64,000 nt of DNA from Sialis fuliginosa (lineage: Eukaryota; Arthropoda; Insecta; Megaloptera; Sialidae), in NCBI GenBank assembly GCA_961205875.1, contig OY540821.1, positions 13,640,001-13,704,000 on the forward strand, written 5' to 3'. Shown in pieces: positions 8,367 to 44,085 of this stretch. Every line of letters starts with the position of its first letter. Position 1 is the first letter of the stretch. The notes beneath the pieces are model-generated. The model did no database searches and was not told the DNA's origin. It worked only from the letters and a program-made list of their open reading frames with translations. Both the position numbers and the translations under genes were made by a program.

Positions 8367-8452
8367 TACCAAAGTATTAGAATTATCTATGACGAATATG
8401 ATCATAATGTATCTCCTTACCTGAAACAAAAAAGAAAAAAAATGTTAAATAT
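8367..8452 (-). other. Candidate recursive splice site with RS-exon
   Basis: Read on the minus strand, a long pyrimidine tract (TTTTTTTTCTTTTTTGTTTCAG, here split as TTTTTTTTC / TTTTTTGTTTCAG) ends at 8421 and is followed at once by GTAAGG, so acceptor and donor are juxtaposed. A second donor, TTTG|GTAAGTG, lies 51 nt downstream and ends an exon at 8370-8420. A TTTAAC string upstream could be the branch point. This is the classic ratchet-point arrangement described in long introns of flies and vertebrates. The 51-nt exon is open in one frame only (VRRYIMIIFVIDNSNTL), so an in-frame 17-residue microexon is the main alternative. Confidence 0.5.
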
Positions 8453-11400
8453 TTTATTGTACATTTTGTTAACACAACTTCATTAAATTAATGGAAAATT
8501 TAAATGAATACAGCAAAATATAAACTCAAATTCTATGAATTATACAATTCATAGATTAAATTTAAAATACAACTATAATATAATGAAAATGTATAAATAA
8601 ATATATTGTTAGTGTAGCTATTCAAAATAAAAACGTCAAGTATTTATGTCATAATCATTATTTTGTTTTAATTTTGTTAACACATTTGGACATTTGGTCC
8701 TCATGACTGCCACCTGCCCTGATCGTCTCGGGACAATACCCATGCTCATTCTGATATCAAAATGAATAAAATAACTTCAGATTAATAGTGTTTAAAATGT
8801 TGATAATTTTTTTATTAATCTTTTACCAAATATTTTGATATCTTCGAATACTTAAATCTTTTCAAAACAAAACAAAAATTTATTTTGGGCAAAGGAAAGT
8901 CTTCTTAATAAACGACAATAAGATAACTCGAAAATTTCATCTGGAAAAGTAGGTGAAGTACCACACCGTTTTAAGCTCTTATAATTCCTTGCAACTTTAT
9001 CTGATATTACTTCTGGTATCTTTAACTTCTCAAAAGTTTGAGTTGAAAATATCCGATGAAAATACGCAGCAAAAACTGATATTCATAACTGAATCGCTCA
9101 GAAGTCATAATAACTAGTGTCAGTGCGTCTTTTCCAAAATTCTTACTTTACAAATCAATGTTACTTAAATAAAATTATCGTTTTTAAAGTTGCTCATCGT
9201 ATAAAAAGTTAAGCTAAAAGCCAAAATGATGTACCAAAATGGTTAATAATGGTTTACAAAAGACATTTTATTGTTAACTAGCTGATATCCGCGATTTACA
9301 ACTTTTAAAGATTTTTAATTAATATGTTAAAAATAATAGACAAAATACATTTTAATGTACATTTAGCATCGATGAGTCCTTTAGTAACCAAAGTCATTAA
9401 GCTCACTATATATGTTGGTCGAATTAGTATTAAAATTATAAAATTGACCTTAAGTAATATTGATAACTGAGTTACTCAACTCACAGTTACAAATAAAAGA
9501 CTGAAAATAAAATTCGCCTTTTTATCCAGACAAATGAAATATGTCAGTAGATTTAATTCATTTGTCCAGCCCTGATTTAAAGCCAATTGGTGATTTTCAG
9601 GTGATAAAGGGATAGATTTTCGTCACGCCTATTGGACAAACGGTAACAAATCAAATCCTCTGAGACATGAATCACAAAAGATTTTAATCTATTCACTTTG
9701 ATGTATTGTGAAAATTGGAAAGCTTTAATGGTCAATATCCTTAAGATGTGTATTCTCTGGAAGATTATTTCGAGTTTTTTATACTGAGTTTGTTGAATGA
9801 ATCCTTTGATACCGTAGGACCAATAGAGTCTAGACAAATTTTTTAAATGTATGTTTAGTTCGTATTTTTATGAATTTGTCGAGTTATTTATATAATAGGA
9901 CTGGAATATTATGTTTTTTATTGTTGTTCATTGTAAATAATATAAAAAAGTTAACTAAAATATGTTTATGAAGAAATCAATTATAATATTTAAAGGGCTC
10001 TGCAGAGAAAATGGGGGAAATGTGTATTTAAATTGGTCATATTAACGGAGTCGTCGTTTTGGAACGTTATTTTCTATATATTGCATCTTTCGGATCAATC
10101 GACCTTTAAAATATACGCACATTTGGTGCCCATCTTCCAGAAAATAAAAATCTATAACAGGTATGGGTAAAATTTTTAACTAGAAAGTAGAAAAGAGGGT
10201 CAAACAAGCAATAGTTTTCTTATGCTCAGTATTATAAAAATGTTGCTTGAGTGCAAAAATCTTGAATACGTTCAGTTCAAATTTCAGCTCTTTCGTTTCT
10301 TACAATTAGTTAATGTGGGCGCCCATTAAAAAAAAGTTTTGAGAAAAAGCAATTTAAAGTTTGAGTTGTTTATAATTATATCATTCTCAACTTATAAATA
10401 AAGCGGTTAAGCATAATTAGTGAATTTTTTTATCTCTGAGACTCTCTTCATAAAAATGTTACTATAATATTTAAGAAAACAAATTTCAAATAATCAAATC
10501 TGCAAAAAGATAGGAAAACTAACAAGATTACTGTAAACGCATAAAGTACTATTATCAACAGTTGAATAATTTATCAGAAGACAAAACTTAAAACCCTTAA
10601 AATAAAATAAAACTTCATTTCAGAGTTCATAAAAAATCAGTGCAAACAAATATTTATTCTACATATGCAGATTAAATATAGTACCAAGTACAAGCTATTC
10701 AGTTATAAATAAAGGAAAAGCTCCAATAAGAATTACCATAAACATTTCTCAACATAAACTAACAACAAGTTAAAATCAGAAAGTCAAATCAAGCAAACTC
10801 TGGAATTTGGATTGATCACTAACTTTCAATTTCCGTAAGCGATAAAATAAACAAATGATAGCAGCGGAAAGCCGCTCGCTTGAAAAAAAGAATGGGTAAG
10901 AGAGCATTCGCCTGTGGAATACATAATAGTTCTGTAAGATAGGCATTATCGCTGTCTCTTTTTGTTACAAGTCGTGCAGATTAATCTCGCGTTTACCAGC
11001 AGTTCTGAAAATCACCCTTACTTTAAATATGTAGATACTAATATTAACATTAATGGTAATAGGTACATTTAAAATAAATACATATTAATAGATTGACTAT
11101 GTATATAATATGTAGATAATATTAACATTAATGGGAATATTGTAGATACATGTTAAATAAAGACATAGTAATAAATTGATTATACACTTGCCAAAGGAAA
11201 TTTCTCCAATAGAACAAGAAAATACCGTTCAATCAATATCTCTCAAGGGTGCCACAGGTTTTCCTTATACATAATACTTACTTTTGTGGCTAACTGATTG
11301 TATAAAAAATTAATAATAAAAAATAACATTCACTACAACTTTTATTAGAAAAAAAATTCGGCTATGAACCATTAAAAAAAATGATTATTTCCTTATAATT

Positions 11401-12011
11401 TTTGTTTAAAGGATAAAGCATAAAACATATATAATAATATTCTTAACAAAATTTACCAAAAACATATTTTTCTTATTTGCACCGTTTGTAAAAAAATCAA
11501 CAATACTTTCATAAAAATAAAGTATAAATAATTAGTATTACATTAAATATTGTTGAAACATACATAATATTATTTAAATTAAAAAAAACTAGTTAATACA
11601 GTGAAACTTTTTTAAACTGACGAACTATGGTTAGTTAATTAATGAAATAGTTGTTAAAGGATGGCTTACTGTATGTATGTACGTATACAATTTATATGTT
11701 TATTCATGAATTAGTCTGGTAGCATTAAATAACGTAATAAAGTTTAATTTGGTTAACATTTTGAGAAGCACTGCAGTACATCCGTCTCTTTTCCGTTCAA
11801 TGTTCATATTGCTCGTGTTGCACCACGGAACATGAAGGAGTTTGTACTTTAAAACCACATCGTCGGATGTCACATAGAATTCTAACTAACAGAGGATTGC
11901 AAAAAAATTACATGATAAAAATTAACGATATATTTTTGTTTTATTAGTACCTACTGCGCTCTATTATTCTTATTAATGTCTTTTTACTTAAAATCTATAT
12001 ATTTAAGTGAA
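8453..12011. other. AT-rich non-coding stretch with scattered repeat fragments
   Basis: No gene is recognised. A block at 8700-8755 (minus strand: ...GTATTGTCCCGAGACGATC then AGGGCAGG) resembles GGGCGATCAGGACAGG near 12208, and may be a transposon terminus. A segment at about 10125-10345 (TTCAGTTCAAATTTCAG, GTGGGCGCCCA) shares TTCAGTTCAAATTTCAG with 22067-22083 and looks like an old dispersed repeat. An 86-codon minus frame at 9577-9837 has no recognisable domain. ACAGTGAAACTTTTTTAAAC near 11608 resembles a pogo/Tigger-type terminus without a partner. Confidence 0.5.
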
Positions 12012-12165
12012 TAGCAAAAAAAGCCACGGAACTTTCTTATACGTAATCCTAACAGTGAACAGTGTACGTGATTCTTATTTTATTAAAACATATTATTGAT
12101 AAATTAACCGAAAACTGACGTTTACTCTTGTCAATTTTTGAATTTTCAAATTATTTTTAAAATAA
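12012..12165 (+). repeat. Dispersed repeat, copy 1 (partner at 59025-59215)
   Basis: The strings CTTATACGTAATCCT, ACAGTGAACAGTGT and CGTGATTCTTATTTTATT, then AACCGAAAAC and TTACTCTTGTCAATTTT, recur in inverted orientation at 59025-59215. This copy lacks about 55 bp from the middle that the other copy keeps. There is no coding potential, and no termini could be defined. The family is not recognised. Confidence 0.7.
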
Positions 12166-13205
12166 GAAAAAAATGTTGCTGACTAGATGGATTAGGATAT
12201 GCCCTGGGGCGATCAGGACAGGCAACATTCACAAGCATATATACTATTTATATTCAGTTATTTGCGAATTTTCACAAAAATAACACACTTTTTTATTTGC
12301 ATATTTTTATATTCGCATCCACTAGATACAAAAACTGCACTATATAAAAGCCGAAACATAAACAAAACTTTAAACAATCTCATTTGCTAGAATCGTCCGA
12401 AAATAGCAGCAATATGAATTTGAGTTTAGGAATGTTTATTGGTGCTATTGTTTACCACCAATGTCCCAATGAACACAGTAAACTTCCTAAACACAAAAAC
12501 TACTGACCGCAACACACAAACTTTGGAGATTCATTTACAAATGTTTGTATAACAGTCTTCGACGTAATACTGTCCACATTATACGATACAAGCTGATCAT
12601 GAAGTTTACACAAATTTATTATTAAACCTTGATAAATATTTTTTGATAATATTAATATTAATGTACTTAAAATAATATAATATAAATAAAAATAAATTTA
12701 TAATATTTAATTCTAATAATAATGAGAAATTTCTAGCGCCCCATAGATGCATGATTAATAACAAATCTTAGTCAGCTATTACGGGATTTCCCTAACCGTC
12801 TATATTTGAAAAACTGCAGCTAGTCACCTATTTTCACACTTTTGAGTAATCAGGTCATTCATTTCTTGTTTCATTGTGTGAATTTTTTTGGTTTTGTTTT
12901 AGTTATTATGTAACTAAAAGGATATAAAAAATATTTCATCTATGTATCTTAAAGAGGAAAAATAAGACACTAACTTACTTTCATGAATTGATAATTATCT
13001 TAATAATTTTGCAGTTAGAAGTTAAAAGTGATACATTCAAAAAAATCTAATATTTTTAATTTTACAAGATCTAAAAAATACATCTGTCCATATTGGTGAT
13101 AAAAGTAAACAGAATGGGACCATGAAAATATTTTATTAACATTCTCGAAATGTACCTTTTTCAAATTGAAAGACATTCCAAAGTTTTCAACGTTGATATT
13201 TCAAT
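12166..13205. other. AT-rich non-coding stretch with a TATA-like motif
   Basis: TATATAAAAG at 12341-12350 is a good TATA-box match, but no initiator lies at the expected ~30-bp distance. A TCATTT string at 12380 is too far. A 30-codon frame begins at 12414 (MNLSLGMFIGAIVYHQCPNE...), but it lies within a hairpin-prone segment (GTTTAGGAA...TTCCTAAAC, ATTGGTG...CACCAAT) and is not supported as a gene. The rest is AT-rich without features. Confidence 0.4.
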
Positions 13206-13209
13206 TTAA

Positions 13210-13309
13210 CCCTTTCAGCCCTGAATTTTTAATAATGAACATAAATTTCAAATGCACAGATCAATCTAAATGTCAATGGTGGCAAATGCCACCGGCAGGG
13301 CCGAAAGGG
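13210..13309. mobile_element. piggyBac-like MITE between TTAA sites
   Basis: A 100-bp sequence starts CCCTTTCAGCCCTG and ends CAGGGCCGAAAGGG, an imperfect 14-bp terminal inverted repeat (one mismatch). It is bounded on both sides by TTAA (13206-13209 and 13310-13313). TTAA duplication with CCC/GGG ends is diagnostic of the piggyBac superfamily. The element is far too short to code for a transposase. Confidence 0.75.
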
Positions 13310-13313
13310 TTAA

Positions 13314-13649
13314 TCTGACTCGACAATAGTTAGCCATTACAGCGTTTCTACAAAATTTTGCAAGTACACTACTTTTGCAAAATCTGCAACTTTGAGATTG
13401 GCATTTTCTAACTATAAGCAGTGTATTCTACATGATCTAGTAATTTAGCGCACGTTCTAACTTTTCGAAGTTCTTCTTAATGTAACCTCCTACCCACCTT
13501 CATCATAAGTCAATGTCAGAGATGTACCTTTTTCCCAAATAACGACATTTCTGAAAACAAAACTATATTGTCGAATTTTCTAAATTTCCTATCCAATTAA
13601 ATATTAAACTGTTTTTTAATGAACTAACCATAGAAATTAAGGTGGCATA
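13314..13649. other. AT-rich non-coding stretch
   Basis: Nothing recognisable is present. Confidence 0.55.
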
Positions 13650-13766
13650 AAGAAAAAATAATCACGATTAGTTAATTGTCTGTTTACAATCCATGATTTA
13701 ATATTAATTCTAAATCTAATCACGGTTAGTTTACGGACGATTCATTAATTGTGATTCTTTTTTTAC
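13650..13766. repeat. Imperfect inverted repeat (hairpin)
   Basis: The left arm (AATCACGATTAGTTAATTG, then TCTGTTTAC) is matched imperfectly by the reverse complement of the right arm (GTTTACGGACGATTC, ATTAATTGTGATTC). The middle also repeats AATCACGGTTAGTTTA directly. It is probably a small decayed MITE, but no target duplication was found. Confidence 0.45.
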
Positions 13767-14330
13767 TGTAGAAGATTCATCATAGCAGTAATTAACGTTG
13801 AGTATTATAATTATGGTTTTAAAATAGTCGATTAATTTTGCTTTATGCAACCCAAGGTTAAAATATTAAGTAGGGTCAAAGATGCATATATTCTCTTTTA
13901 ATTTAATAAATAAGATACAACAATCGACATGATATAAATGACCATACTGTATATCACCAATGTAGTATATATATATATATAAAGTGTTTTGTGAGTTGGA
14001 AAAAAATAATACGAAAAGTCGCACAAGTTGTACCCGTCTAGTATGTCATTTTCGATGACATAGAATGTAATTTATGTCAAATTCTCTCTTTAAGAAAATC
14101 GCACTAAATTTAATTTATTACTCCTTTACATTGCTCCGGCAATCCACGGTTTTATCAGAGTTATATTAATCTGAATAATTTATATTTATTATTTGTTGCA
14201 GGATTATAAAATCGTTTTGAAATATAAAAATTTAAATATAATAAATTTACTATGATTAATATTTTTTGTAAAGATCTTTTAAAACTAAAATAGAACGTCA
14301 AAAGAGAATTTAAAATTGTTTTATAGGGTC
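13767..14330. other. AT-rich non-coding stretch with (TA)n
   Basis: A (TA)n run lies at 13965-13982. A small hairpin GTCATTTTCGATGAC occurs near 14045. An acceptor-like TTATTATTTGTTGCAG ends near 14201. No gene is seen. Confidence 0.5.
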
Positions 14331-14708
14331 AACTGGGGTAAAGGTGAAACAAAATACAAATCTTTCATGTTTTTTTGACAGTTAACGATACAAATTTATA
14401 CTTTAATTTTTTCTACTAGATGCACTTATGAATAACCATTTTAAATACTTACATCTTTTGAACTGTATGATACAACACAGACTTTAAAAATGAAAAAAAG
14501 TGTGTTTCATTTTTAATATCAATGTGAAATTGTAACTTTAATTAATATCTGAGCTATACAGAAAGTTATGTACAAAGAATTAAAATTTAATTCACACGTT
14601 TTGACATCGACTAACAGGGAAATATGTAATGATGATGTCAGTTTTTATAATTCTCCTATAAACAAATTATTTTTTTAGTTTCAAGCGTGTTTCACTTTTA
14701 CCTCATTT
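14331..14708. repeat. Putative element with GGGGTAAAGGTGAAAC inverted ends
   Basis: The left end AACTGGGGTAAAGGTGAAAC is nearly inverted at the right (GTGTTTCACTTTTACCTCA), about 18 bp with two mismatches. The interior is AT-rich with no coding capacity. Related strings (GGGGTTACTTT at about 47837, GACGGGGTAATTTAAGACGG at about 26053) suggest a wider class of GGGGTAA-ended repeats. The family name is not known to me, and the target duplication is unclear. Confidence 0.45.
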
Positions 14709-15133
14709 TTTAATACCTACGGTTTTCGGGTTCAAGATTAATTGAAGATTACGTGTAGATTCTAATAAATGATTTTTAGGATTTAATATTTAAGGTTGAA
14801 ATATGCATTTCGGAAAATATACAAAACGATTATAGGGGAAACTTAATTAATGCTGTCATCATAGGAGAAATGAGCTAACTCATTATAAAACTAATCTACT
14901 TGGATATTAATATCCAAAATTCATTTTAAACTAAACTAAAATGAATCGCTTTATATCCTTTAAGTGTATAAATTACCATCGCTATTTAAACCCGAAATTT
15001 CAATTCACAGCCAATCCAAATTACGTTCTCGATGAAACATAATTTATTTCCTTTAGGAAAAGAAAACGATTCGTTTTTGAATTAATCCATTAGAATTATT
15101 TCAGGTAAGATGCGAAGCAGGAAAAATGTTTAC
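14709..15133. other. AT-rich non-coding stretch
   Basis: No gene is seen. On the plus strand TTATTTCAG|GTAAGATG occurs at about 15104, a juxtaposed acceptor/donor with only a weak pyrimidine tract. Confidence 0.5.
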
Positions 15134-15213
15134 CTGTCGGATAAGTTCAGACTCGTATAAATTATCAGACCCATCTTCTACATCTGCTGTATTATCTCGA
15201 TTGACATCAATTA
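15134..15213 (-). CDS. Candidate internal coding exon, family unknown
   Basis: On the minus strand an 80-nt block encodes IDVNRDNTADVEDGSDNLYE and then SELIRQ. It ends in a consensus donor CAG|GTAAAC at 15134/15133. Composition is more balanced than the surroundings and the peptide is acidic and linker-like. The frame is closed upstream by TGA, so the exon would have to start at GAG|TA around 15213, where the pyrimidine tract is poor; this is the main weakness. The exon ends in phase 0, compatible with the only open frame of the 51-nt RS-exon candidate further along the same strand. The neighbouring CAGTGTTGCCC string at 15221 looks like a transposon end. The coding appearance could be chance. 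Confidence 0.22.
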
Positions 15214-17365
15214 CTCATACCAGTGTTGCCCAAAAGGTTAAACTCTTGTTTGACCTCTACCCGATACAAAAATACACCACACAAACCATTTTCAAAAACA
15301 AATAATATGAGTATTTATGGGAATTAAAAATTACTGATGCTTTATTAAATATTTTTGATTAATTTTTTATATACATATGCATACGAATCATACGACAAAT
15401 CTGTTTTTAACTGGAGAGTAAATTGCTGCTGTATTTTATTAATAAGCAATACGATGTACCTGGAATTTATGTTTTGCCATTAAAGTTTTTTGAAGCGGTC
15501 GATTACAATATTTTTAAATAAAAAGCATGCAACAAACATAGGGGTCTATTAGTTGTTCAAATATATACAAACCTTTCAAACTTTATTTATTTACGTACTG
15601 ACATATTGCACAAGGATCAGTTCATATATTAACGTAAGTTAATGCATATAAACATACTTTTGTGGCAACCATATACATTATAATGATATTACTAATAACT
15701 TTAAGATGAATTGTTTACCAGAAAAATTAAGAGAATATGAACTATACATCATTTAATTTAAAAAAAATGTTATAAGTAGGTTAGGTTAGGTTAAAACAAA
15801 CACACAAAATTTGGCTATAGAACTATCATAGACCAAAAGACAAATGTCACCGATAAATAGAAATAGTTCGATTCAGGGACTCTCAAAAAATATAGTTTCG
15901 TTGAAATTACCAGTTCTAATCTATCCGTGACTACTATATACTATTATACAGTAGAAATATGTATTTTGAAAATAGTTAAAAACGTAAAGTTTCCTTTATA
16001 TTTAACATTCAAAACACCGAACTGCTTCGAGTTGGTCGAACGATTCATATAATTGGGTTTGAAACCACTGATTTTCACGCATCAAAGATCGATCGGAAAA
16101 TGAAAGATTATTCCAAACACACACACATACACACACACCGAGACTCGTACGTCACACACCCACCCACACGCACACCTTTAGTTGTAGACGGAAGCAGTTA
16201 CCCGGCTGTTAACCCAATCGAGTTTTCGATCACAATGATAAATTATTGCTGGAGAGATCTATCTCCTCCTATACCACTACTTGATCTGAAAACTTTGCCG
16301 CGATAATGAAAATTGTGTTTACATGATGACGTTGGTTTACATCAAATTGTAAATATATACGAGCGCTTGTTTAGGCAAGATTATGTTTATTTTGTTGAAA
16401 TTTGATAAAATAAATCGATTTTTACTTTTTAATAATACCTGCATGAAATATACTATATAAAAGGGTATAGCCAGAGCCGGCCTTTGCAAGACTGGCGCCT
16501 TGGGCGAGATTAATTTTGCCCCCCCCCCCCTCACCCCGAGATGATCAGTGATGTCGGAAAAGAGATTTTAGATAGCGAGGCACTTGAAAAAAGGTGCAAG
16601 ACACAAAAATGACGGTTGTTAAAGATGGGCGCTTCTACTACAGCTCTTAGTAGTCCGATGTCAAATTTTTTTGTTAATTAAGAAGAAACTTTTTTATTAT
16701 TATACATTTTTCGCACAGTTATGAAAAATATAAAAATTTATAATAATGCAATACAAAAAAGTAATTAGTGATTCTGGAATACACAATATGATATTTGATA
16801 ATATGCTTGCGGTTGTATCAACAAGAATTCTATTGGTAAAGCCCATTGAACAATGAACTTATTTACATTTAATTATAGAAGTATAAATGTGCAAACAAAT
16901 ATTATAAACTATAACAAAATAATCTCTGCCATTTAACTAAAAACTATATTTTCCAAAATGTAAATTAACTACAAACGGTCCGTTTTTCTCGAATGTCGCA
17001 TTAAAGGGAAAACAGAATTACAAAGAAAATTAGAATTACAGTTAAATACACTCAACTGTTTTAAACAAGTGTAAAGCGTATTTAACTTGCAAATTAATGT
17101 TAAATATAAATGATTACAATTTATGCAATCATATTGAGAGAAATATATTTTGAATAAATTTTAACACAAACTTTTCATGCAAAAACTTTCCTCATTTCCA
17201 TCTTCTATTCTGTTAACAAACAATTTCACATCCCCAGTAAAAATTTACGAACAATCAAAATAGTTTAATAAACATTTCCAGAAAAACAAACGATCGTATA
17301 GAAATAAGAGTACATTTTTAGAATTTTCTTTGTAGTTTTATTTTGTTTGATAATTCTATTTTATA
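15214..17365. other. AT-rich non-coding stretch with simple repeats and a hAT-like end
   Basis: A GGTTAGGTTAGGTT stretch near 15779-15793 matches the insect telomeric unit TTAGG, which is common interstitially. A (CA)n tract lies at 16116-16138. A hAT-like terminus CAGAGCCGGCC begins at 16472 and is followed by GGCGCC and a 12-base C run (16519-16530); no right end was found. No gene is recognised. Confidence 0.5.
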
Positions 17366-17870
17366 ATGAAAAATAAGACAAATGTATATTTGATTCTTAA
17401 CAGATTCATTTTGTTTTTAAGTTTGCCGGAATATAAAACATTTTAGTAAATAAATAAATTAATATGTCTGCAAAAATAATATTACAAAAAAACCATTTAA
17501 TCTATATAATTATTCCATCTATCTAAATTTATGCAAACGTCAAATTGACATTTAATATGTCAAAGTAAATATCAATTAAAAAACAAATAATGATTTTCAA
17601 AGTAAATTGAGATAAATCTTTGTAATGGAATATTTTACAACAAACGTTGTTGAATGCTCTACAAAAAAGATTCTATAAAATTTTCACGTGACACGTGTCT
17701 TTCTTGAGATATCTTGAAAAAATAAATATTTTTGAATTTCACCCAACAATCAAAAAAAGTTTCATTAATATCGGTTCGGTGGTTCTTGAGTTATGCGTGT
17801 GACAAGGATTCACTCGACAGACACACACAAATCTTCTTGTATCTTCGATATTGCGAGGAAGTAATATTTG
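17366..17870 (+). repeat. Modular dispersed repeat, copy A
   Basis: The first 120 bp (TATATTTGATTCTTAACAG, ATATAAAACATTTTAGTAAA, AATATGTCTGC) is repeated at about 92% identity by eye at 35755-35875. The last part (CTTGAGATAT, TTTCATTAATATCGGTTC, GAGTTATGCGTGTGACAAGG, GCGAGGAAGTAA) matches copies ending at 29530 and, inverted, at 40966-41230. The middle module found in copies C and D is absent here. No open frame exists. The shared order of modules indicates one non-autonomous family of at least 0.5-0.9 kb. Confidence 0.65.
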
Positions 17871-19516
17871 CCAGATCTAAGTAATTATATAATATATGCA
17901 AAAATATAAGCAATTTAGGGAATACTGAATTTTAAATGTGAGAAATAAAAACAAAAAATGTTAGTTGATTTAAGTTCTGAACGCCTCGTATTGAAATAGT
18001 AATATTTATTCAGTACTGGCAATAACTATCCAAGCAAACATGACAAAAATAATTCATTACATTTCAGTTTTAAATATAATTTTCAACAAAGTGAGTTATC
18101 TAAAACTCAAATAGACAAACATCAAGAATAAAAAGTATCAAAAACAACAAATGTCTAAGTCTTACAAACTAAAATTTATAACGAGCTGATACCAAACATA
18201 TATACGGATTATTAAGACAAAACTTGTATCTTATATGTTAGGCAATTTCCTCCACAATGGTGAATCCAGTGCAAAAACAGCTACAAACTTTCATGTTACA
18301 ACCATGATACTACTTACTTATTATATTATTGTTACTTGGTTATTCGGGATTATTTTGTTCGGCTTCACAGAACAATATTGACTTGGTATTTTAAGTATTT
18401 AATTCAAAATAAATAAATATTGTATGCGGATGTAAATTTTAATTTTAATCTACTTTTTAAAGGTATAGTTAATCTCTTTGACTTTGAAAACTTCAATTTA
18501 ATTTTCGTTTAAAAATTAATCGCATCACAGTAAAGAGGAAGTTGAAAAATTATATATTAATAAACCTCCGACGTAAGAAAATATGCTACCTAGGAATAGT
18601 TTTTTTTTAAAGAAAATAATAATCTGACTTGTGTCAGAGGGATGCTAGTCGTGAAGCTGGACAAGGATCCATTTAAGTATAAGTACCTACTGCCCAAATC
18701 GTAAGTTGGATAGTTATTATTTTTTAAAGTACTATTCCTAAAGAGCTTATTTGTTAATGTTAATTTTTTTGCGTCGTGAGGATACTAAAAAAAAGTATTT
18801 GATTTATTTTATCAATTTTATACAAGTCCAGTAAAACAAGTCAATTTTTTAAGACCATTATGCACTTTAAAGTACGTGGTTGAAATTAACATTCCAGTTT
18901 TTTAAGTTTATTAAAAAAAAACACATACAAATCCGATAATACGTTAAAAAGTTACGAAGTCACAGACACCCACAACACATTTATAGATACCTTCATTAAA
19001 ATCTTTCAATTATAATAATTACAAATTTTGATTCACATTCGAACAAAATAAAATTCCACGATTGCGACCAATATTAAAGAGAAAACTAAATTCGTTAAAA
19101 CTTCGCTAGTGAATTTTTAATTTGATATCTCATTAATCTTAATCCATTTGGCAGCAGTGCTTGTGGAATCTTATCATTAAAGTTTCTTGACGGTCTCTTG
19201 AATTTTTAAATAACCTTGTTTGCGTTGTAATAAAACACGTCCATTTAATAAACAGAACTTACTTATTTTGTTCTTAGATGAAAAAATTCTCTAACTAGCT
19301 ACAAAGACAGTGTTTTTTTGTAACTATTACCTACGTGTAAAGAAACGTTAAAAAACTAAACTAACTATTATATTTACGAAGAATTTTTTTACTTTTTAGT
19401 TAGTCTGTCTGTCTGTCACAGCCATAGCTAGTGATCTGTTTGACCAAAAAACCCAGTGGCGAGGCGTGAAATTTTTAAAAGAGAAGCATATTTTGTTATA
19501 TCCTATTAACAACATA
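17871..19516. other. AT-rich non-coding stretch
   Basis: No gene is recognised. GTCTGTCTGTCTGTCACAG at about 19404 and CAGTGGCGAGGCGTG at about 19452 look like degraded repeat ends just before the palindromic element. Confidence 0.5.
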
Positions 19517-32716: not shown

Positions 32717-32868
32717 GGTAATGATTACAAAATGATAAGTACTACGACACAAAAATATAAAAGAAAGAATCGTCAAATTTGAAACATTATAAAGCAGTTG
32801 CAATGATAATATAATAATTAATAAATAAATTATACTAAAAATTTTCCAAATCAAGAATTTGATCTAGA

Positions 32869-32876
32869 GTCTAGAT
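32869..32876. repeat. Left 8-bp target duplication of hAT element
   Basis: GTCTAGAT faces GTTTAGAC at 33294-33301 (6 of 8 identical, differences are transitions). Both fit the usual nTnTAGAn preference of hAT insertions. Confidence 0.6.
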
Positions 32877-33293
32877 CAATGTTTCTCAACTCTAGTGAAA
32901 CCCTTGATATAATATTCATGTTTGGAACAACCTCTACATAAAATTTTTAAATCATCTTTTATTATTTACATATAAACTTAAAATTTATTGAGAAAACATA
33001 ATATGTTTTTCTTTTATTCACATTGAAAAGGAGAAAATTTTTGCCATTGCTCTTAATACTTGTGAAGTAAGAAAAAGCTTGCTTGCACATGTGGTTGTAA
33101 ACTGCAGCAATATATTTATTTATTGCTTTCCTATGAATATTTGGATGCTTGTATTTCACAGAAAAACCGAGATAAATCAGTAAATCTCGTATCAAATGCA
33201 CGATCAGATTGCAGCTCACTCATAAAGCCAAGCTTTCAGTACAATTTCTCGCGGAAACTTTGGTTTCTGAGGAACCCCAGTTGAGAAACACTG
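32877..33293 (-). mobile_element. Internally deleted hAT (Charlie-like) element
   Basis: The ends CAATGTTTCTCAACT and AGTTGAGAAACACTG are inverted and match the CAGTG(G)TTCTCAAC type of Charlie/hAT termini. Eight-base degenerate target duplications flank the 417-bp element. Subterminal text (GAAACCCTTG and GGAACCCCAG) is also typical. The centre holds a transposase remnant on the minus strand, so this is a deletion derivative of an autonomous element and not a pure MITE. Confidence 0.8.
32962..33219 (-). pseudogene. Decayed hAT transposase C-terminal (dimerisation) fragment
   Basis: An 85-codon frame contains KHPNIHRKAINKY followed by a segment reading YNHMCKQAFSYFTSIKSNGK. hAT transposases and their domesticated relatives end with a conserved block of the form HP-(7-10)-KA...P(F/Y)-TTYLCE-x-GFS-x-L-x-x-IK-x-K-x-RN. 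The spacing of HP, KA, C, FS and SIKS here follows that block, with key residues lost (no conserved Pro-Phe, LCE changed to MCK, RN changed to GK). In life the domain makes the dimer interface and supplies part of the catalytic core of the nuclear transposase. The N-terminal zinc finger and the catalytic Asp residues are missing, so the fragment cannot be active. It lies inside an element with intact ends, which independently supports the call. The Met at 33219 is just the first one in the open frame, not a real start. Confidence 0.65.
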
Positions 33294-33301
33294 GTTTAGA
33301 C

Positions 33302-35754
33302 CAACACCTGACTATTTTCTTATGTAAAAAAGTGTATTCAAACTAATTATTTTTAATATTTTTCTAATTTCTTTTTTAAATTAATTATTACAACTTTAAT
33401 ATCATCTATTTCTAGTTAATACACGCGAAAACAGACGAAATAATTTTAACAATAAACTCTATATTTTTTACATCACGCCGCCACTGAAACAAGATTAAAT
33501 GCCATTGAAAAAAGGTATAACATTAATTAAAACCTACGAGTTCCAAATTGCAAATAATGTACAAATATTCATCCAAATAAGTTAGAAAAAAACAACCTTA
33601 ATTAAAGTGCGAAATTCAATTTTGTTTACAATTGTATTAATTTTTAATTTATATATTGTATATTAAAATAATGTAATTTAGATATCGTTTATTTTAACGT
33701 ATTTTTCGAACAAATACAAGATATCATGAATAGACCAAACATTTATCAAAAAAATAATAAAAATCTGTTATCATATTATTATCAATATAAAAAAAAGTTG
33801 AGAATCTGTAGTCATTTTAGAAGACTTTTTGTTAGAGTACTAATGACAGGGGTTCTTTATTCTTACACTATAAAGTAGTTGCTCAATAGTAAAACAAACT
33901 TTTCGAAGGAAAGTTTTTCAGTATCAACACATTTCTGACAAATGATTGTTTTATTTTTACTAAAAAAAATTCAAATCAGTTTGAACCCTGTAAAAGTCAA
34001 TTCGAATATAGTAAGAAGTCTTAAAAAGTACAAAAAACTTAGAATTAAGTTCATATTCTCATTTAACTCTATAATATAATAGTTAAACGTTAACTAGAGA
34101 AAGGTTTCGTCTTATTAGCGATCAATGTTGGTTATGTTATTTAATCTAAGAAAACAACTCGAGAACACTTCGTAGTGTACCCGTTCTTAAACAAAGCAAA
34201 CACCCCAGGTTACAAAACAATAACTCACTTCTTAGTATAACAAACTTCAAGAATATATGTATACAAATACGTAATATAGATATATATACTCTACAAGCCA
34301 TTAGAAAAAGTTAATTAATTTTAATAATTTTAAGTGTTAAATACCACAAAATAAAAAAAATGGTACACTTATGGAATCAACATTATATCTGTCTGTCACA
34401 GCTTTTTAGCTAGACCTAGAAAGCTGATATTTGGCATAGTTATAATAAATGGTGAACCAATAATAGAAATGAGATAAAAATTATATTTTAAGATTTTGGC
34501 ATTTTTTTAAGGTGGTAAATCGATCCCCAAAAAATATTTAGTGGAGTATCAAATGTAAGCTAACGATTTAAATATAATAAACGTTTTGTTATTAATAAAA
34601 TCTTCGTGCAAAAATATTTTGTACCCTTTGCCCGAAAGTAATAATATGAAAAATCTGATGAAAACTGCGACACCAAGATTTAAAGAAAATTGTTAGTCAA
34701 CACTCACCGCACTTACGTATTTTGTGAAAGTAACTAAATCGAATAAATTGAATAAAAAAAATTATACGGTACGGGACAATAATATACGAGGCTCGACTCG
34801 CACATGGCAAAATATTTTTTAATGAAAACCTGTTTTTTATATATAATGAATTAACTAAAACAAAAAGTATCGTTCATTTTTGTCTATCTTTCTGTTTGTT
34901 TATTCCGATTTGATACGAAAACTCCTCAACCGATTTTAATGGGACTTTATTGTTTATATTATAAAAAACGTATGATATTTTCTAATAAAAATACATAATA
35001 AAAAAGAAGAAAAATCTTGTTGAATCATTTTACTTATCAATTAAATAAAAATATATTTCCGAAATCACGATATGTTTTCAATATGTATGTATATAATATT
35101 CTGTTTATTTTTAATACACACCCAACTCTAATTAATTATTTAACAGTCTTCGTATACTATCTAAAGTATTATAAGATGTTTGATGTTCGTCAACAGTTTG
35201 AGATAAAGTTCAGTGTATGTCATACGCCACTAATTAATTTCTACACTTAACGTTAATTACATTATTACATGTTCACTCAGTCAGTCATGAAAGTGACTCA
35301 TTAAACCACGTCTAATGTTCAAAACACTTGACTTTGTAATACATGAGTTTTCTCATAAACCTAATTAACTACACCTTTTGTTTATTTCTTATTTTAATAC
35401 GCCAAAAGAATTTCAAATGTGATAAAAAGCAAAAGCGTTCAAATAAAATCTAAAAAACTATTACATTCTCTTCGCGCATGTAAATAAACGTGTAAAAGTT
35501 AGTTCGTTTGTGAAAAAAAAAACGTTCAGAACTTCGTCAGTAAAACTGTGGAAAAACTAGGTACGCATAGTATGCAATATCATTGCTCAAGAGCAAAACT
35601 GTGTTAAAAGTTACGCTATAGATAACAGAGTTAATCTCTTAATGCTCTGAGCCTAAACTTTCAAAACATGCACACATGTATTATTACTATTATGTATGCA
35701 TATAACAGTGGTCGTCAAACTGATGTCATTTATCTCAAAAAACATCACACCAAA
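33302..35754. other. AT-rich non-coding stretch with repeat scraps
   Basis: No gene is recognised. GTCTGTCACAGCTTTTTAGC (about 34390) and TCAACCGATTTTAATGGGAC (about 34927) are phrases of degraded insect repeats. GGCTCGACTCGCACATGGC near 34790 resembles the tail of the repeat at 2554-2850. CAGTGGTCGTCAAACTGATG at 35706 resembles a hAT end without a partner. Confidence 0.45.
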
Positions 35755-36020
35755 AATAAGACAAAAGTATATTTGATTCTTAACAGATTAATTTTATTTA
35801 AGTTTGCTTGAATATAAAACATTTTAGTAAATAAATAAATTAATATGTCTGCAAAAATAACACTACATAATCATAAAAAAAACACCTACCAAGTAAATGC
35901 ACAGTGCTTCCTCGTTCTAAATTCACCAAAGGTAGTTAATTATTGAACAATTTAAATAAAAATCGATAGTGTTCAGATAAGTATTGGTTAACCATTTAAT
36001 TTTCATACAATTTTACTAAA
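35755..36020 (+). repeat. Modular dispersed repeat, copy D (first and middle modules)
   Basis: The first module (TATATTTGATTCTTAACAG, AATATGTCTGC) matches copy A and is followed directly by the middle module (ACCTACCAAGTAAATGC, TTCACCAAAGGTAG, TTGGTTAACCATTTAATTTT) as in copy C. This copy shows that the two modules belong together. A weak end-module scrap (AAACGATCGCAAAACTTCTC) lies at about 36598. Confidence 0.7.
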
Positions 36021-37208
36021 AGTTATTAGTTTTTTATAATTTCAATCTAAATCTAAATTTTTCTAAATTTTCTTGTGTCACCTAAAAATTTACATCCTGT
36101 ATAAATAAGTACATATAGATAAGGAACATTGATTCTACAGTTTGAAATATTAACAGAAATGTTCCACATATAATAATTATAGTTATTTATTATGTAACCA
36201 TACGTATAACAGATAAGACAAGTTTTTCAAATAGCGCCCTATATATATTATTATGACATCAGTTCGTATCTTCTATTCTTTTTGCATCCGTTTAAGAATA
36301 TCATACAGTCGTACTATAAAAACTTCGAGAAAAATGATGAAAATTTTACAGATGTCAAGAAAATAAACACTAACTAATGATATAATAAATAAACTTCTGA
36401 GACCACTACAAGATTTTTTTTATACATTACTATGCAGAAACAAATAATATGAATTTTAAATAATAATATTCTTTATTTTATTTAGCAATTTTTTTCTTTT
36501 CCAGGTCATTTCAAAAATAATAGGAAAAAAAATGTTTCCGGTTTAGTGATGACCTTTACAAATAGGAGGTGGAGATGTTTCTTTTTTTTTTCATTTTAAA
36601 ACGATCGCAAAACTTCTCGTATCTACGTAAAATAAGAAAAATTTCATATATGATCGCATTGTTATAAAATTTATAGAATAATATAAAGTACGTATAATTA
36701 TATCTACTATAAAGCGAATATTCACAACAACCCTAATAACCCAACAAACAAAACAATACACTCATTCAAATCTACATCAAATAAAATAAAACTTGCTCCA
36801 TTCGCGGGGAATGAAAATTGGTTAATTTCGCGTAAAATTACCTGATATAAGTGTCCTCTTTGAACCCTATCCATTAAAAACAATATTCGTGGTGGTGCCA
36901 TCAACCAAACTAATTGCATTAGTTATCTACACTAAATGTACTATTGATTTTCCCCACGTAATTTGTTGGTCAATCCCCGCCCCCTCAAATACTGCCACTT
37001 CTCACCGATCCAACAGTAGGTATTTTAGCATAATGCACACGGCTGCATGTACGTATATGTAAATATAGATTATGTACATAATACGTCCATGTGTTTGTAT
37101 GTCAATGTGCAGGGTTAGTTTTGGGGTTATGTAAATTTGTATTAATTAGTGAGATGAGTATGTTCCGATAATAGTAAATAAGATCGCGACAAAATTATAT
37201 TCACTACT
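36021..37208. other. AT-rich non-coding stretch
   Basis: No gene is recognised. An acceptor-like TTTTTTTCTTTTCCAG ends near 36504 on the plus strand without a convincing exon. The segment 36725-37060 is less AT-rich and could hold conserved non-coding sequence. Confidence 0.45.
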
Positions 37209-37410
37209 AAGCTTTATATATATAGATATATAAAGCTCAATGTGTATATGTCTGTCCGTCTGTCTGTCTGTCCGTTAGTGCGCTTATCACTCGAGAACCA
37301 CTTATCCGATTTACGTAGTAATTCATAGGTACGTTCTCCATATTTTGTTACGTTAGGTAACAAATGTAACAACTAAGCAGTGACGATAATAATAAATCAA
37401 GTCGGAAAAA
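37209..37410 (+). repeat. Repeat end with TA-rich hairpin and GTCTG tract
   Basis: AGCTTTATATATATAG and the inverse CTATATATAAAGCT-type arm make a 28-bp hairpin at 37210-37237, followed by GTCTGTCCGTCTGTCTGTC and TTATCACTCGAGAACCAC. This head-to-phrase arrangement is common in insect dispersed repeats. The family and the far end are not identified. Confidence 0.45.
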
Positions 37411-37764
37411 AGTTTGCCGCCGGCGCGCTGATTTGCAGTACGCTGTCTAAACCGTTCAATATTGAACAAAATAATGTATTATAGAATTGTGTAGAATCAA
37501 AAGATCTACAATAAAGTCTGCGACACCATATGTCTAACTTTTATATTTAATTAAACCACAATGACTGCTTTTATGTTACAAAGAAAATTTAAAATATTTG
37601 GGAATTGTTTACGTGGATTTATGACTTGCAAAACATTTATCCTTATCGAAATAAATGATTTCATCGTCATAAGTACTTAACGTAGATATAATTTGCCCTT
37701 TACAGCATCCAATTTGGTCTTATAGTTTAGAAAATATTTTGAAGTATAAATACGAGAACATATT
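37411..37764. other. AT-rich non-coding stretch
   Basis: Nothing recognisable is present apart from a short GC-rich string (GCCGCCGGCGCGCTG) near 37418. Confidence 0.5.
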
Positions 37765-37850
37765 ATTTGCGCGATGGGAACCGTGTCGCGGCGTGCGGTA
37801 AGAATGAAGCGTGCCGAGTAGACGCTGGGTAGAAAGAATGATCACTTTTG
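37765..37850 (+). promoter_or_regulatory. Small CpG-rich patch with donor-like site
   Basis: The segment GCGCGATGGGAACC, then GTGTCGCGGCGTGCG|GTAAGAATG, is CpG-rich and ends in a good donor match. An ATG at 37775 would give MGTVSRRA before the donor. Too short to call a gene. Confidence 0.2.
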
Positions 37851-39780
37851 ATGTCCAGTAATTTAGCCCCCCCCCCTCAAGAGTGCTAAAAAATAAAGCT
37901 TTTTTAGAATTTTTTTCTTCACTACTAATAAAACAATCATATAATAGTTTTGGAGGGTGCTGATGGGCCAATCATAGTATGTTTAAACGTACTGAAAGGA
38001 TTAATACATGGGATTAGATTTTTTTTGTGACTTTAAATTATTACGGAAGTATACACCTATTTACCAGTCTTATTTTAATGATAAAATTAAATACATATGT
38101 ATATATTAATTAACAAGGTTCTGAACGTTTAAAGTAATGACACAAAACTGAAATTAGGCGTACCCCTATTCGAATACGTGTCACTGGAGAAATTAAAACT
38201 AGTGTAATTGTAAGTAGTATAATTATAATAAATAACTTTAAATATGTTACACCAAGTGAAACACATAGACAAAGATTGTATGTTCGCATTTCGCGTAGGT
38301 TCAAACATAGTTTTCATTTACAAAAGGACTTAATTAGTATGCGTGTATGTAGTCATGTTTTATAGGTAGGTGTATTGTTTCCGCAAACAGAAATGCCAAA
38401 TATTGTACTCTAAATTATCTAATCTTAATAATTAATTTATTCGAGATATCTACCAACAGAACATCCAAATTTTCGTCCATCATAGATACCTGTGTAGAAA
38501 CAAAATAACTTTTAACGGGATTACTCCCTGAATCACGTACGACCATTATCTCAATGACGGTTGTATGTCTGTCTGTAAATGCTCTACAGCCAAAACGATG
38601 AAACTTACAAATATAAAAAATTACAAAAAAAAACGGTATACGTTGCTCTTAAAGGAGACTGGTGCCAGAACCTTTAGAGAATATACAAAAATAAAGAGGC
38701 TTAGGTAGTTGTTTCATGTTTCTCATGTCGTTGTGTAGATATTGCACTCACTTCACCAATACATCTGTCAATTAGTTAATAAGTTTTTTTTGCAATACGT
38801 TTATTTATTTTCTTTATGCAACTACTTTATAAAGGCTGATTTTTTTATATTACATCACATTTGTGGTGTAGAGATACAGCCTGCCGTCAGTCAGTTAGTT
38901 TCGTTAGCGTTTGGCGCAGGGGCGGCTTAATTTTTGTAAAAATGTTGCAACTACTTTATAAAATCTGAAAATTTATTTGTAAGCAGTATACTAAGTAAGA
39001 ACCCCTTTTATCATAATCAGCCTTCAGAATCTTGCAGCCGGGCGCGTCAGCAGTGCGTTTAGTTTAACGAGTTTAACAAATTAAATACTCTAATTGTTAA
39101 AGGTATACAATCACAGATTTATTTGTTTACAACTGAACGCGTCGCTACCATCGCGACATATATGAATAACAAACAACAACTCTTGTATAAAACAGTCTGA
39201 ACCCGATCCTGAAATAAAGCATGCACCACAGTATATCTTGTTAACCGTCTACAATATATTACTCTGTACACTTACTAGATTATGACAAACTAATGAGCAA
39301 TACCTTTGTCGGCGTCACGCGTGCTTGCATAACACAGTTACACAGACAATAGGAAGTGAAAAAGACGATAACGCCAACAAGTAATTTGATAATACTCCAC
39401 AGACAGACGCTGGACGGATAAAAACTCGTGAATACGTAATTTATTGGTATTAGTTCCGTCGATACGAATATAAAGTATTGGAATGTACTAAAAAGAGGAA
39501 TTATCTTTGAATGTATTGAAACCAGCGGTGGATGATGACCTAAATTTTGAGAAAATGTCCAAAATTTAATTTATATCGATGTAATAGCCTCCAGCAATAG
39601 TTTCCAAACTACAACTCGAAAGTGTGATTGTTTCATACTTTAAAGTTAAAAACTATTTTTTTTAATTTTTATTTAAAGCATAAAGTGTTATTATAAACTA
39701 TGTACCGACCTATTATAATATTTTAACATTGAAATCAAAACGTCTTTTTTTCTGGCGTTCATACAATTACATATACATAA
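37851..39780. other. AT-rich non-coding stretch with repeat scraps
   Basis: A 10-base C run lies at 37867-37876. GCAACTACTTTATAAA occurs at 38818 and again at 38947, which could be a target duplication around a 113-bp insert containing CAGGGGCGGCTTAA. CAGCGGTGGATGATGACC near 39526 looks like a hAT end. No gene is recognised. Confidence 0.45.
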
Positions 39781-39844
39781 ACGGCCCGCTATACATTTCA
39801 GAATATTATATGTGACCCTCTTCTCGAAAAGGTTGATTACCCTG
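39781..39844 (-). mobile_element. hAT-Charlie-like terminal fragment
   Basis: On the minus strand the sequence starts CAGGGTAATCAACC, continues TTTTCGAGAAGAGGGTCACA and reaches GCGGGCCG, the usual subterminal layout of Charlie-type hAT elements. No partner end was found. Confidence 0.5.
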
Positions 39845-40965
39845 CGCCTTTAGAAAAGCGTATAACTATCTGACAATGGCATTCAACTTACAGATATTTT
39901 TAGACGCTTTAGAGAGTGCTACTTCATTGCTATGTTCGTAAAATATGCAGCAGATTTAAAATTAAACAAAATTTAAATAATGTAATACTTTTAGCTACTA
40001 TTTTGTTTTTATTGCTATTACTCAGCTTTAGAAAAACATTGTTTATATGATAATCAAATAATTTTGGCTTCATATAAAGATTTATGATAATATTCTTCTG
40101 ACTTTTTTCTATTACAAATAGCGTAATGCGCATTTTGCTCTTTAGTAAAGTGTGCTATGATCTTTACTGCCACAGCCTTCTCTGTATAGTAAATCGCAAA
40201 GAAACTTCGTCTCACCTTAAGCTAAAAGTTTTATACTCTGCATACATTTACAGAATTTACAACTCTGTTTTTTCTCTAGTTATGTAAATGTTCAAATGAA
40301 GAACATGGTGTGTGTTTTAGATTATAAACTTTCAACTAAGAACTGCGTCGTGTTTGCTTACGAAGGTATCGATTTTGTAAGGAATTAGTATATATTATTA
40401 TATCGTTTAATAAACTAGGTCTAATCATCAGCTGAAACAACATACGTGACAGGGGGTGAAATATTAACTACCGTGCGAAACCCGGACGAGTCTGCAAGTA
40501 AACAATAAAAATTGATGGAATGTTTTAAAATATTTATTTTACAATGCCAACATACCTGTATACCTATATAAGATTCGTTAATGCAAAATATGAACATAAA
40601 ACAAGTTACTAAGGCGTATAAATAATAAAGTTAACGAGGTATATTACTACTAATACTATCAAGTGTTGACTTTATTAACTAGTCAAGAGGTAGCTGAAAA
40701 CTACATTTCCTTTTGTTTCTCGGTACGATAATTATATAGAACGCTGTGCTCTATCAATTGCCTTACTTGTGCTGTACGATAATTTAACCTTATCGTCTGT
40801 AAGAAATATCTAATTAAATGTATGGTCAAAACTAATTTATTTATTTATAATAGCGAACTATACGAAAGTTGAATGGATAGCTATTTTTACAATAATTACA
40901 TTTTTAAGCACCTAGTATTTGTTATTTTCAAATATGGCCTTTACCGTATAGACCTTTAGTGCATT
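39845..40965. other. AT-rich non-coding stretch
   Basis: No gene is recognised. A 67-codon frame at 39930-40133 has no domain features. Confidence 0.5.
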
Positions 40966-41230
40966 TTTTTATTGCTTCCTCGCCATATGCGAAGGGAAAC
41001 GGAAGCAATGTGATCATTTATCAAAATAGACAAACATTCTCTGATTTCAAAATTTTCACTTGATCTTTTGTTTCGTGTCTGCCTGAATTATTGGCACACG
41101 CATAACTCATAAACCACTGAACCAATATTAATGAAACTTGGTTTGTTGGTTGGATCTGGCTAGTAGATGGTCCCAAATAAAAATCATTAAAATAATTTCA
41201 AAATATCTCAAGAAAAATTGATTAATTTTT
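40966..41230 (-). repeat. Modular dispersed repeat, copy E (end module)
   Basis: The reverse complement reads TCTTGAGATATTTTG, AGTTTCATTAATATTGG, GAGTTATGCGTGTG, GGCAGACACGAAAC and ends GGCGAGGAAGCAAT. This matches the end modules of copies A and C, including the leading part seen in A. Confidence 0.65.
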
Positions 41231-41925
41231 TTTGTAGAATATTTTTACTTTAAAATTCCCAGTTTAATAAATAGTTCGTTACACAAATTTGATCTGTTAA
41301 CTTTTCGATACCTTCAAATTCGACCCTATGCCTAGAGCCAACTCAAGATATGTATTGTTCCGTACATAAGCGTTATCTGTTTGCTTAAAGTTTCAGCACC
41401 TCGTTGTTTTTTTCGAGCGTATTTCGCCCGTGAAACCAGCTGATAACACAGCGCGGCAATAATGTACGACCGTCGCAGTTACTGCGAAGAAACAGCCCCT
41501 CCCATATAAACGTAACCTACCCATCCCCGGCGATGCTTCTTTTTGTTAGATCTAAATGACTGAACCGGTATTACTGATTATACAAGATTTCATATATTCT
41601 ATCTCCTGCTTTCTCAAAGGATTCGAGTTTCTTAAAATAGAAAACAGGTTTTCTTGGATACAATTTTAAATGGTGCTTTTAAGTTATATTGTATATCATG
41701 ATAAATTTTATCTTATGTATCGATGGTTGAAAATTTTGGTGAACTTGAAAATATTAATTTTAATTATGTTCAAAAATTAAAAACCGATTGCACTAAAACA
41801 TGTCAGCATTTTAGTAAACTTTTTTTTACAAGTCTGCCTTTTTGTTTTTTATTAAAATAAACTCTAATTCTCGGTAATACGGTAACGAAATAAAAGAAAT
41901 TGATCTTTAAATTACGAATTAATTC
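41231..41925. other. Non-coding stretch with a GC-richer block
   Basis: The segment 41395-41540 is GC-richer (AACACAGCGCGGCAAT, CGACCGTCGCAGTTACTGCG, ATCCCCGGCGATGC), without an open frame I can support. The rest is AT-rich. Confidence 0.4.
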
Positions 41926-41933
41926 TCTGTAAA

Positions 41934-42332
41934 CATGGGCGTACGTGAAATCAACTCGCTAGCTTACTCTAAATCAATTTTTCGATGTGTTACCTAGACA
42001 TATTGAGAAATTGTAAAAAGGTAATGAAAAATAAAAAAAGTAGGTAACAGTAACAAAAATTCACTTTTTAAATTTTTTCTGAATTTTTTTCAACCATAAA
42101 TTTTGTACGTATCTTATATAATAGAAGACAAAATCATCTATAAAAATGTATTCTACCTAGCTATCGATTTGACTGGTCTATAAGATAAAATAAATAAAAA
42201 TAACAAATGCACTTTTTTTTATTTAAAAATATCCTTGTTTAACCAATATACTAATTTACTTGTTACTTTTTGAGCACAATCTAGGGGGGGGGGTGCAAGC
42301 TTCTCCCGTTGCCCTCCCTGGGTACGCCCATG
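41934..42332. mobile_element. hAT MITE with perfect 8-bp target duplication
   Basis: The element starts CATGGGCGTACG and ends GGGTACGCCCATG (11-bp shared inverted terminus CATGGGCGTAC). It is flanked on both sides by TCTGTAAA (41926-41933 and 42333-42340), an exact 8-bp duplication diagnostic of hAT. A 10-base G run (42284-42293) lies near the right end. The 399-bp interior has no transposase. Open frames crossing its right end on both strands are artefacts. Confidence 0.88.
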
Positions 42333-42340
42333 TCTGTAAA

Positions 42341-44007
42341 TTGAAAACACTAAATCTATTATACATAACTATTACAAGAAACCCTAAAGTTTCTCCTGAA
42401 CTTTCCAACTTCAAATCCGTACATCTAGCGATCTCCTTATTATCTATTTGTAGAACTACAGCATTGAGTGTGACTGTCTGGCGATACATTTTCTGTTAAT
42501 TTATTGGTCGGATAATCCGAGACAATGGGGTCTGTGCCGATTGACTCGAACGGGCGACAGCTTTTGAAGTGGGTAAATAAGATTGGTCAACTGTGACAAC
42601 CTGAGGCAAATTAATAGGCACACCGTTTTGTTTTATGTAATTCAATATTGATACTAAGGATATTTAATTAATAGCTAAAGTTAATCAACGCATTATGGAT
42701 GTCGGTCACAAATACAATGGGTTTAATGGCTTATATACAGTATGATTTTATATGAGAAGTAATATATCTATCATAATTAGTTTTAGAGTAAAATAAATTT
42801 GTAATAATTAAGTAGTGGATCCACAGTAATATCTACCGTAAAAATTAACCATATTGTAATTTTAAATTAAAATAGTCTTATTATTACGAACATTGTTTTC
42901 AATAGCTTTTTTTGTCCACTCAAATACTTCATACTTTGCAAGCGTTATAGTTAAAAAAAGTTTTTAATAATAATAAATAATAAATACTTTTTTATCTACT
43001 ACCGGAAATCCGATCAAAATCACACGTAAATTTTTCACCAGGCTATTTCAAAAAAAAAACAAAAAACCTTTGGATACAATTAAAAATAATCTCTCTTTAT
43101 GTCTTTACCAACAAACCACCCAAAATTCCGTCGAACATAAAATTAGCCCCTAAATAATATTCTTATCTTTTTATCCGAATGTAAATCAACATGAACAAAC
43201 TAATAAAAAACGACGGATTCAATACGGTCACATAAATCCATCAGGTCTGCCAGGTTCTACTTCATTTCCGCTATACACAATGTCGCCGACCCGTGCTTCA
43301 AACCAAACCGAGTTTTATTTATTTATTCACCGAGACATGAACACATGACTGGAATAACTAGAAAATCTACTCAAGAACCTATCGCTTCTAGTTTGCCATT
43401 GATTGACTTATATTTATTTTTAATTTATTTACATAACTATATACTCGTACTATATATTATAAATACTAGGATATCGGTACAAATTGAAATATTAACGGGA
43501 TTCCTCCCCCTCAATCTGTTGTTTTTGACCAAAAAATAAGCTAGCCACAAATTCAGTGTTGGCAATTAATATTTTCGCGTTTATCTGAATACTACATTTC
43601 TTTTAATTTTTCTCGTTTTTACCTGTATATTATGAGTTTTTTCTGGTAAATAGCATATTTTAAAAGAAGATTCCATAGTTATTTTTTATTCTTTTTTAAA
43701 TTCCATCTACGCAGAAAATCTATTAAACAAAATTTTGTTAAATTTATTAAATTTAACAAAAAATCGTTTTTCTGTGGAAATGGAATACATATATAATTTA
43801 AAGTTAATTTAAAAATGGCACGCGACTAGTAAAGATGTATGGTCAGAAATGTAGGGTTAATATTTCGTATACTTAAGTAAAAATTAAATATCAAAATGTT
43901 TCCGTTTATAGTCGCTTTAATTCAACTCATATCTCGTCATTTTATTTCAAATATAACAACTATATTTAAAAATGTATGTATATACGTAATATAAATTAAA
44001 ATCTCTT
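42341..44007. other. AT-rich non-coding stretch
   Basis: No gene is recognised. The segment 43195-43330 is less AT-rich (CATCAGGTCTGCCAGGTTC, ATGTCGCCGACCCGTGC), with no supported frame. CAGTGTTGGCAATTAATA at 43554 resembles a hAT end. Confidence 0.45.
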
Positions 44008-44085
44008 ACCCACATCTAGAAATAATACCTTTGTATAGAAAGAATTACCTGTAACAAAAGAAACAAACAATTAGTATACAATTTT
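44008..44085 (-). other. Candidate recursive splice site with RS-exon
   Basis: On the minus strand a perfect branch-point consensus (TACTAAT) is followed by the pyrimidine-rich TGTTTGTTTCTTTTGTTACAG ending at 44049 (quoted as TGTTTGTTTC / TTTTGTTACAG). This is joined directly to GTAATT, and a second donor GTGG|GTAAGAGAT closes a 39-nt exon at 44010-44048. The layout is the same as at 8370-8420, on the same strand, 35.6 kb away. The 39-nt exon is open only in a frame different from that of the 51-nt exon, so both cannot be coding microexons of one intron in the same phase. That favours ratchet points over cassette exons for at least one of them. Confidence 0.5.

Follow-up and report, generated by a model that had tools for sequence, protein, structure and literature searches.

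Two short sequences on the minus strand of a 64,000-nucleotide (nt) stretch of Sialis fuliginosa DNA (C13:13640001-13704000, referred to throughout as the window) each join a splice acceptor directly to a splice donor, and they raise the question of what role such composite sites, lying 35,628 bp apart, could have. The evidence presented here suggests that both are very probably ratchet points with cryptic recursive-splicing exons (RS-exons), which would serve the recursive splicing of a 445-kb intron in the insect N-cadherin gene (CadN).

At one site, TTGTTTGTTTCTTTTGTTACAG runs directly into GTAATT, with window position 44048 as the first base after CAG, and TGG|GTAAGAG follows 39 nt further. 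At the other, TTTTTTTTCTTTTTTGTTTCAG is joined to GTAAGG, with position 8420 as the first base after CAG and TTG|GTAAGTG 51 nt further. The original prediction had described both composite CAG|GTAA sites, strong second donors after 51 and 39 nt and a perfect TACTAAT at the 44048 site, and every one of these elements is present as it stated. Numbered by their order along the intron, the sites are putative ratchet points 2 and 3. At ratchet point 2, the TACTAAT (44070..44076), a candidate branch point 22-28 nt upstream of the site, precedes a pyrimidine tract and CAG acceptor (44049..44069; acceptor score 12.0), the putative 39-nt RS-exon 2 (44010..44048), which starts with the ratchet donor GTAATT, and the RS-exon donor GTAAGA (44004..44009). 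At ratchet point 3, the tract and CAG acceptor (8421..8442; acceptor score 13.4) are followed by the putative 51-nt RS-exon 3 (8370..8420), which starts with the ratchet donor GTAAGG, and by its donor GTAAGT (8364..8369). Both RS-exon donors were assigned from the sequence and from donor scoring.

The N-cadherin gene and its intron

The host gene is recognized from exons on both sides of the window. By open-frame scoring, cadherin-repeat exons lie on the minus strand from window +132861 to +122733, 59-69 kb past the high end of the window. A 330-residue exon piece matches the Pfam Cadherin family (3.9e-50); its best solved structure is CELSR1 (8vy2, 1.5e-88), and Drosophila Neural-cadherin ranks second (3ubh, 3.6e-66; best stretch residues 1-99). 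On the other side, five places on the minus strand of C13, from 13318082 to 13161504, show 86-98% identity to a query piece of Drosophila CadN, whereas the same piece reaches only 27-44% on other contigs, and it is mainly this search that identifies the gene as N-cadherin. PF01049 (listed as CADH_Y-type_LIR), which we take to be the cadherin cytoplasmic region, has five matches in the 392 Mb and 20 contigs searched; the best two lie at C13:13154453 and 13154081 on the CadN strand, and the others on C14 and C6. CadN extends at least from 13772861 to 13154081 on the minus strand (about 619 kb), and because its exons stand on both sides of the window on the same strand, the gene contains the window.

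The upstream exon terminates in AATTCAG|GTAAGT at C13:13762733 (window +122733), and the downstream exon starts at C13:13318081, preceded by CTATTACAG (a TTACAG acceptor) and opening with TGACAAAG. When joined, the two flanking exons read N-S-V-T-K in frame, as in the query protein. The gene and the ends and phase of its intron are shown here: the intron is 444,651 bp long, in phase 1, and includes the entire window (1..64000). The original prediction of a minus-strand gene with an intron spanning much of the window therefore holds, for all of it. The intron DNA covered here comprises 13490001-13762732 plus a few hundred bases at the intron's end, with 13318601-13490000 (about 171 kb) outside coverage. 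A motif scan of the DNA covered finds no cadherin repeats on the minus strand of the intron; three weak single-motif matches occur in open frames (window 69606, 6619 and -1534), and none in the 50 kb fetched later.

These results bear on the idea that the composite sites are exons of a separate minus-strand gene or non-coding RNA inside the intron, which we judge barely credible. Long introns can host other genes, but nothing specific speaks for one here. The window contains no Rfam family at gathering score and no tRNA, and Pfam gave no match for any of six longer translations, five of them taken from the window and one from its flank. Furthermore, exons of 39-59 nt spaced 36-59 kb apart are unlike a separate gene, and the nearest same-strand coding exons found on either side are those of N-cadherin.

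Other features of the gene and the window are recorded here in their own right. Two similar cadherin exons, at window +126613 and +126173 (C13:13766613 and 13766173; minus strand), stand side by side and by appearance resemble the mutually exclusive pair 7a/7b; in host gene and in this pair the locus is like the arthropod N-cadherin genes with mutually exclusive exons described in the accessible portion of PMC2655722. A minus-strand segment at C13:13165248-13165421, with one internal TAG, aligns at 53% likeness with the portion of the protein that the exon at 13166559 also matches, and is perhaps another mutually exclusive exon. Within the window, an inverted repeat at 53831-57174 has 244-nt arms (98%) 2856 nt apart and encloses a tandem array (54973-56927) in which a 184-bp unit occurs about 10.6 times with 98% matches; the whole looks like a foldback element or one resembling a miniature inverted-repeat transposable element.

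Five composite sites along the intron

Composite sites were scored with generic and simple matrices for acceptors and donors, based on approximate frequencies. The cut-offs were an acceptor above 8, a ratchet donor above 9 and a second donor of at least 7.5 at 25-75 nt. In the 314 kb scanned, made up of a first 264 kb (the window plus 100 kb on each side, with a G+C content of 28%) and the later 50 kb, these fixed cut-offs yield six sites on the minus strand, five of them with a second donor, and none on the plus strand. The five lie at C13:13722205, 13684048 (window 44048), 13648420 (window 8420), 13589566 and 13539582, with second donors at +56, +39, +51, +59 and +56, respectively. Counted from the upstream exon, they mark off intron pieces of 40,528, 38,157, 35,628, 58,854 and 49,984 bp.

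With the CAG of the upstream exon restored, the ratchet donor outscores the RS-exon donor at all five sites (12.7, 9.3, 12.9, 12.7 and 11.1 vs 9.2, 7.8, 9.2, 8.3 and 9.8, in site order). The placement of the five sites on one strand, the second donor at each and the order of donor strengths are direct observations. The suggestion in the original prediction that recursive sites with RS-exons occur here gains support, given that a host gene has been found and that three further sites of the same kind appear on the same strand outside the window.

Could these sites have arisen by chance? An AT-rich intron with runs of T will occasionally produce CAG|GTAA near another GTAAG, and in 100 simulations each of order-3 and order-5 Markov sequence the mean was 1.05 and 1.51 composite sites per 264-kb strand. 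When a second donor is required, the means fall to 0.05 and 0.07, whereas the 264 kb hold four sites on the minus strand, 4/4 with a second donor, and none on the plus strand. The reversed strands contain three sites and one site, none with a second donor. Site 8420 alone, with a score sum of 26.3, exceeds all 60 simulated strands. Three of the five sites lie outside the window, one of them (13539582) in the 50 kb that was added once the cut-offs had been fixed; under a Poisson distribution with mean 0.07, the probability of at least three sites outside the window is 5e-5, and that of at least one in the later 50 kb is 0.013.

No likeness to one another was found among the five sites when they were compared with 400 bases on each side. 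Within the 314 kb, 13648420 and 13589566 have no repeat match, 13684048 has one short inverted match within its own flank, and portions of the sequence flanking 13722205 and 13539582 recur elsewhere, whereas the sites themselves do not.

Composite sites across the genome

A strict pattern (six pyrimidines, NYAGGTAAG, 26-56 bases, GGTAAG) has 26 matches in the genome and four when read backwards. A looser pattern, designed to include the five CadN sites, has 234 matches vs 70 backwards, and chance may therefore account for roughly one in three of them. The backward count of the looser pattern lends the chance explanation some substance, but the excess of strict matches and the one-strand clustering of sites with a second donor in the intron leave it extremely improbable as an account of the CadN sites. 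One strict match falls in the long CadN intron that follows (13317921 to 13168704), at 13220316-13220372 on the minus strand of C13; its exon starts at 13220362 and, read by eye, contains a stop in the host frame.

Among the 100 of the 234 looser matches that are listed (C1 to part of C5), neighbors share a strand in 12/13 pairs within 100 kb (p 0.003) and in 21/24 pairs within 200 kb (p 0.0003), with pairs taken as independent. Exon length is a multiple of three in 28 of these 100, no more than expected by chance, and the listed places probably include ordinary coding exons. Same-strand runs of five and four composite sites at C3:14825908-15231404 (plus) and C2:36567641-36755288 (plus), respectively, perhaps mark other genes with giant introns. 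Two composite matches 1 Mb apart at C4:26737379 and C4:27786434 (minus) closely resemble each other and may be coding exons of a duplicated gene or a repeat. A further pair 32.5 kb apart, C4:29293673 and C4:29326161 (minus), is 76% alike over 292 aligned positions and is probably a duplicated ratchet point; two other pairs compared are alike over 88 and 44 positions.

Putative RS-exons and proposed recursive removal of the intron

In the host frame, a stop interrupts RS-exons 3 and 4; RS-exons 1 and 5 (56 nt each) are open yet shift the frame, and RS-exon 2, at 39 nt, stays open and keeps the frame. Together with the donor order, these frames would fit exons that are recognized and then dropped, RS-exon 2 being the one that could be tolerated. 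The original prediction had argued, from open frames in different phases, against both window exons being coding cassettes. Knowledge of the intron phase, which the sequence of the window could not give, corrects this reading: the 8420 exon meets a TAA, and the 44048 exon is open and in frame. Ordinary coding cassettes are rejected for the set as a whole, because four of the five have a stop or a frame shift and the listed looser matches show no multiple-of-three bias.

The open frame of RS-exon 2 invites a more specific alternative, namely that it is an expressed N-cadherin microexon produced by the same recursive machinery and included in some tissues, as in Ubx, whose m1 and m2 are expressed RS-exons according to the part of PMC8605326 available to us. 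Its length and frame fit, and its donor margin (9.3 vs 7.8) is the second smallest of the five. Nevertheless, we consider this very unlikely. A stop or a frame shift is found in each of the four remaining RS-exons, the 100 listed exon lengths from across the genome show no preference for multiples of three, and the insert would probably fall inside a cadherin repeat. The accessible portion of PMC2655722 names exon pairs 7, 13 and 18 and a 12-nt micro exon 7a', none of them of the 44048 kind. A broader proposal, that local duplication of existing ratchet points adds new ones to giant insect introns and that some of the RS-exons formed in this way, such as the 39-nt one at 44048, are on the way to becoming expressed N-cadherin exons, also seems unlikely. 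Its support is thin: a single C4 pair is alike over 292 positions, the two other pairs compared match over 88 and 44, and the five CadN sites are unlike one another.

Several points weigh against reading the sites as ratchet points. The cut-offs were chosen only once the first sites were known, which makes the fifth site, from DNA fetched later, the fairest test. If the second donor is ignored, the excess of four observed sites over the 1.0-1.5 expected is weak. The ratchet donor GTAATT of site 44048 is only moderate, and that site alone (score sum 21.4) is equalled or surpassed by the top-scoring chance sites in several simulated strands (maximum 25.6). The sixth minus-strand site, C13:13528189, passes for acceptor (8.1) and donor (9.3), and its second donor scores just 2.6. 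The last intron piece, from 13539582 to the downstream exon, currently extends for 221.5 kb without a known site, about 171 kb of it being the segment outside coverage. The downstream CadN exons were located with a query protein of unverified sequence. The strict pattern matches 0/5 CadN sites, whose tract contains a G or whose ratchet or second donor differs, and is therefore evidence for the class and not for these five; the looser matches listed come ahead of C13. Finally, the evidence is the DNA of one genome, at the level of sequence.

Ratchet points with cryptic RS-exons nonetheless remain our very probable explanation, and the following steps would account for the arrangement. First, the cryptic RS-exon (51 or 39 nt) would be recognized through its own acceptor and the downstream donor. 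Second, the upstream exon, ending in TTCAG, would be spliced to that acceptor, creating CAG|GTAA at the junction. Third, as the donor scores suggest, the restored donor would outcompete the weaker RS-exon donor, so that the RS-exon would leave with the next intron piece while the machinery advances 36-59 kb to the next ratchet point.

The accessible portions of three papers provide the precedent. In Drosophila, ratchet points carry roughly 50-nt cryptic exons, first recognized and then dropped, their ratchet donors are generally stronger, and in kuz and Bx weakening of the ratchet donor is reported to bring the RS-exon into the mRNA (PMC8605326); recursive splicing occurs in the longest fly introns, where internal donor motifs fit an exon-definition model (PMC6110457); and combined sites are commoner in large introns than on the complement in fruit fly, mosquito, bee and beetle (PMC2773006). 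The putative sites agree with published features of recursive splicing in every respect testable here. They resemble the Drosophila ratchet points of Joseph et al. (PMC8605326) in the juxtaposed acceptor and donor, the cryptic exon of about 50 nt, the weaker downstream donor and the long host intron; they differ in belonging to another genome, in an intron of 445 kb as opposed to about 31 kb in Bx and about 73 kb in Ubx, and in being known here from sequence. The Ubx microexons m1/m2 are 51-nt RS-type exons in a very long intron, equal in length to the 8420 exon, probably by coincidence; unlike those expressed exons, the 8420 exon has an in-frame stop. As in the ratchet-point enrichment of PMC2773006, combined sites exceed those on the complement strand in introns over 50 kb; whereas sites are counted there, here the second donor at each site, the host gene and the frame are also worked out. 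The word 'recursive' is absent from the main text of the arthropod N-cadherin paper (PMC2655722), and in the literature searched we found no report on recursive splicing of N-cadherin, although Duff et al. and Joseph et al. 2018 may well include the Drosophila gene in their fly lists.

We take the locus as a new case of a mechanism known from Drosophila, in a strikingly long intron. Exact junctions are now named for searches of RNA reads, and the genome-wide candidate list could serve the study of ratchet-point origin and spacing. The results suggest that exon-defined recursive splicing, as worked out in Drosophila, can be recognized from sequence alone in another genome, and, if this is true, a single N-cadherin intron of 445 kb would take at least six steps to remove.

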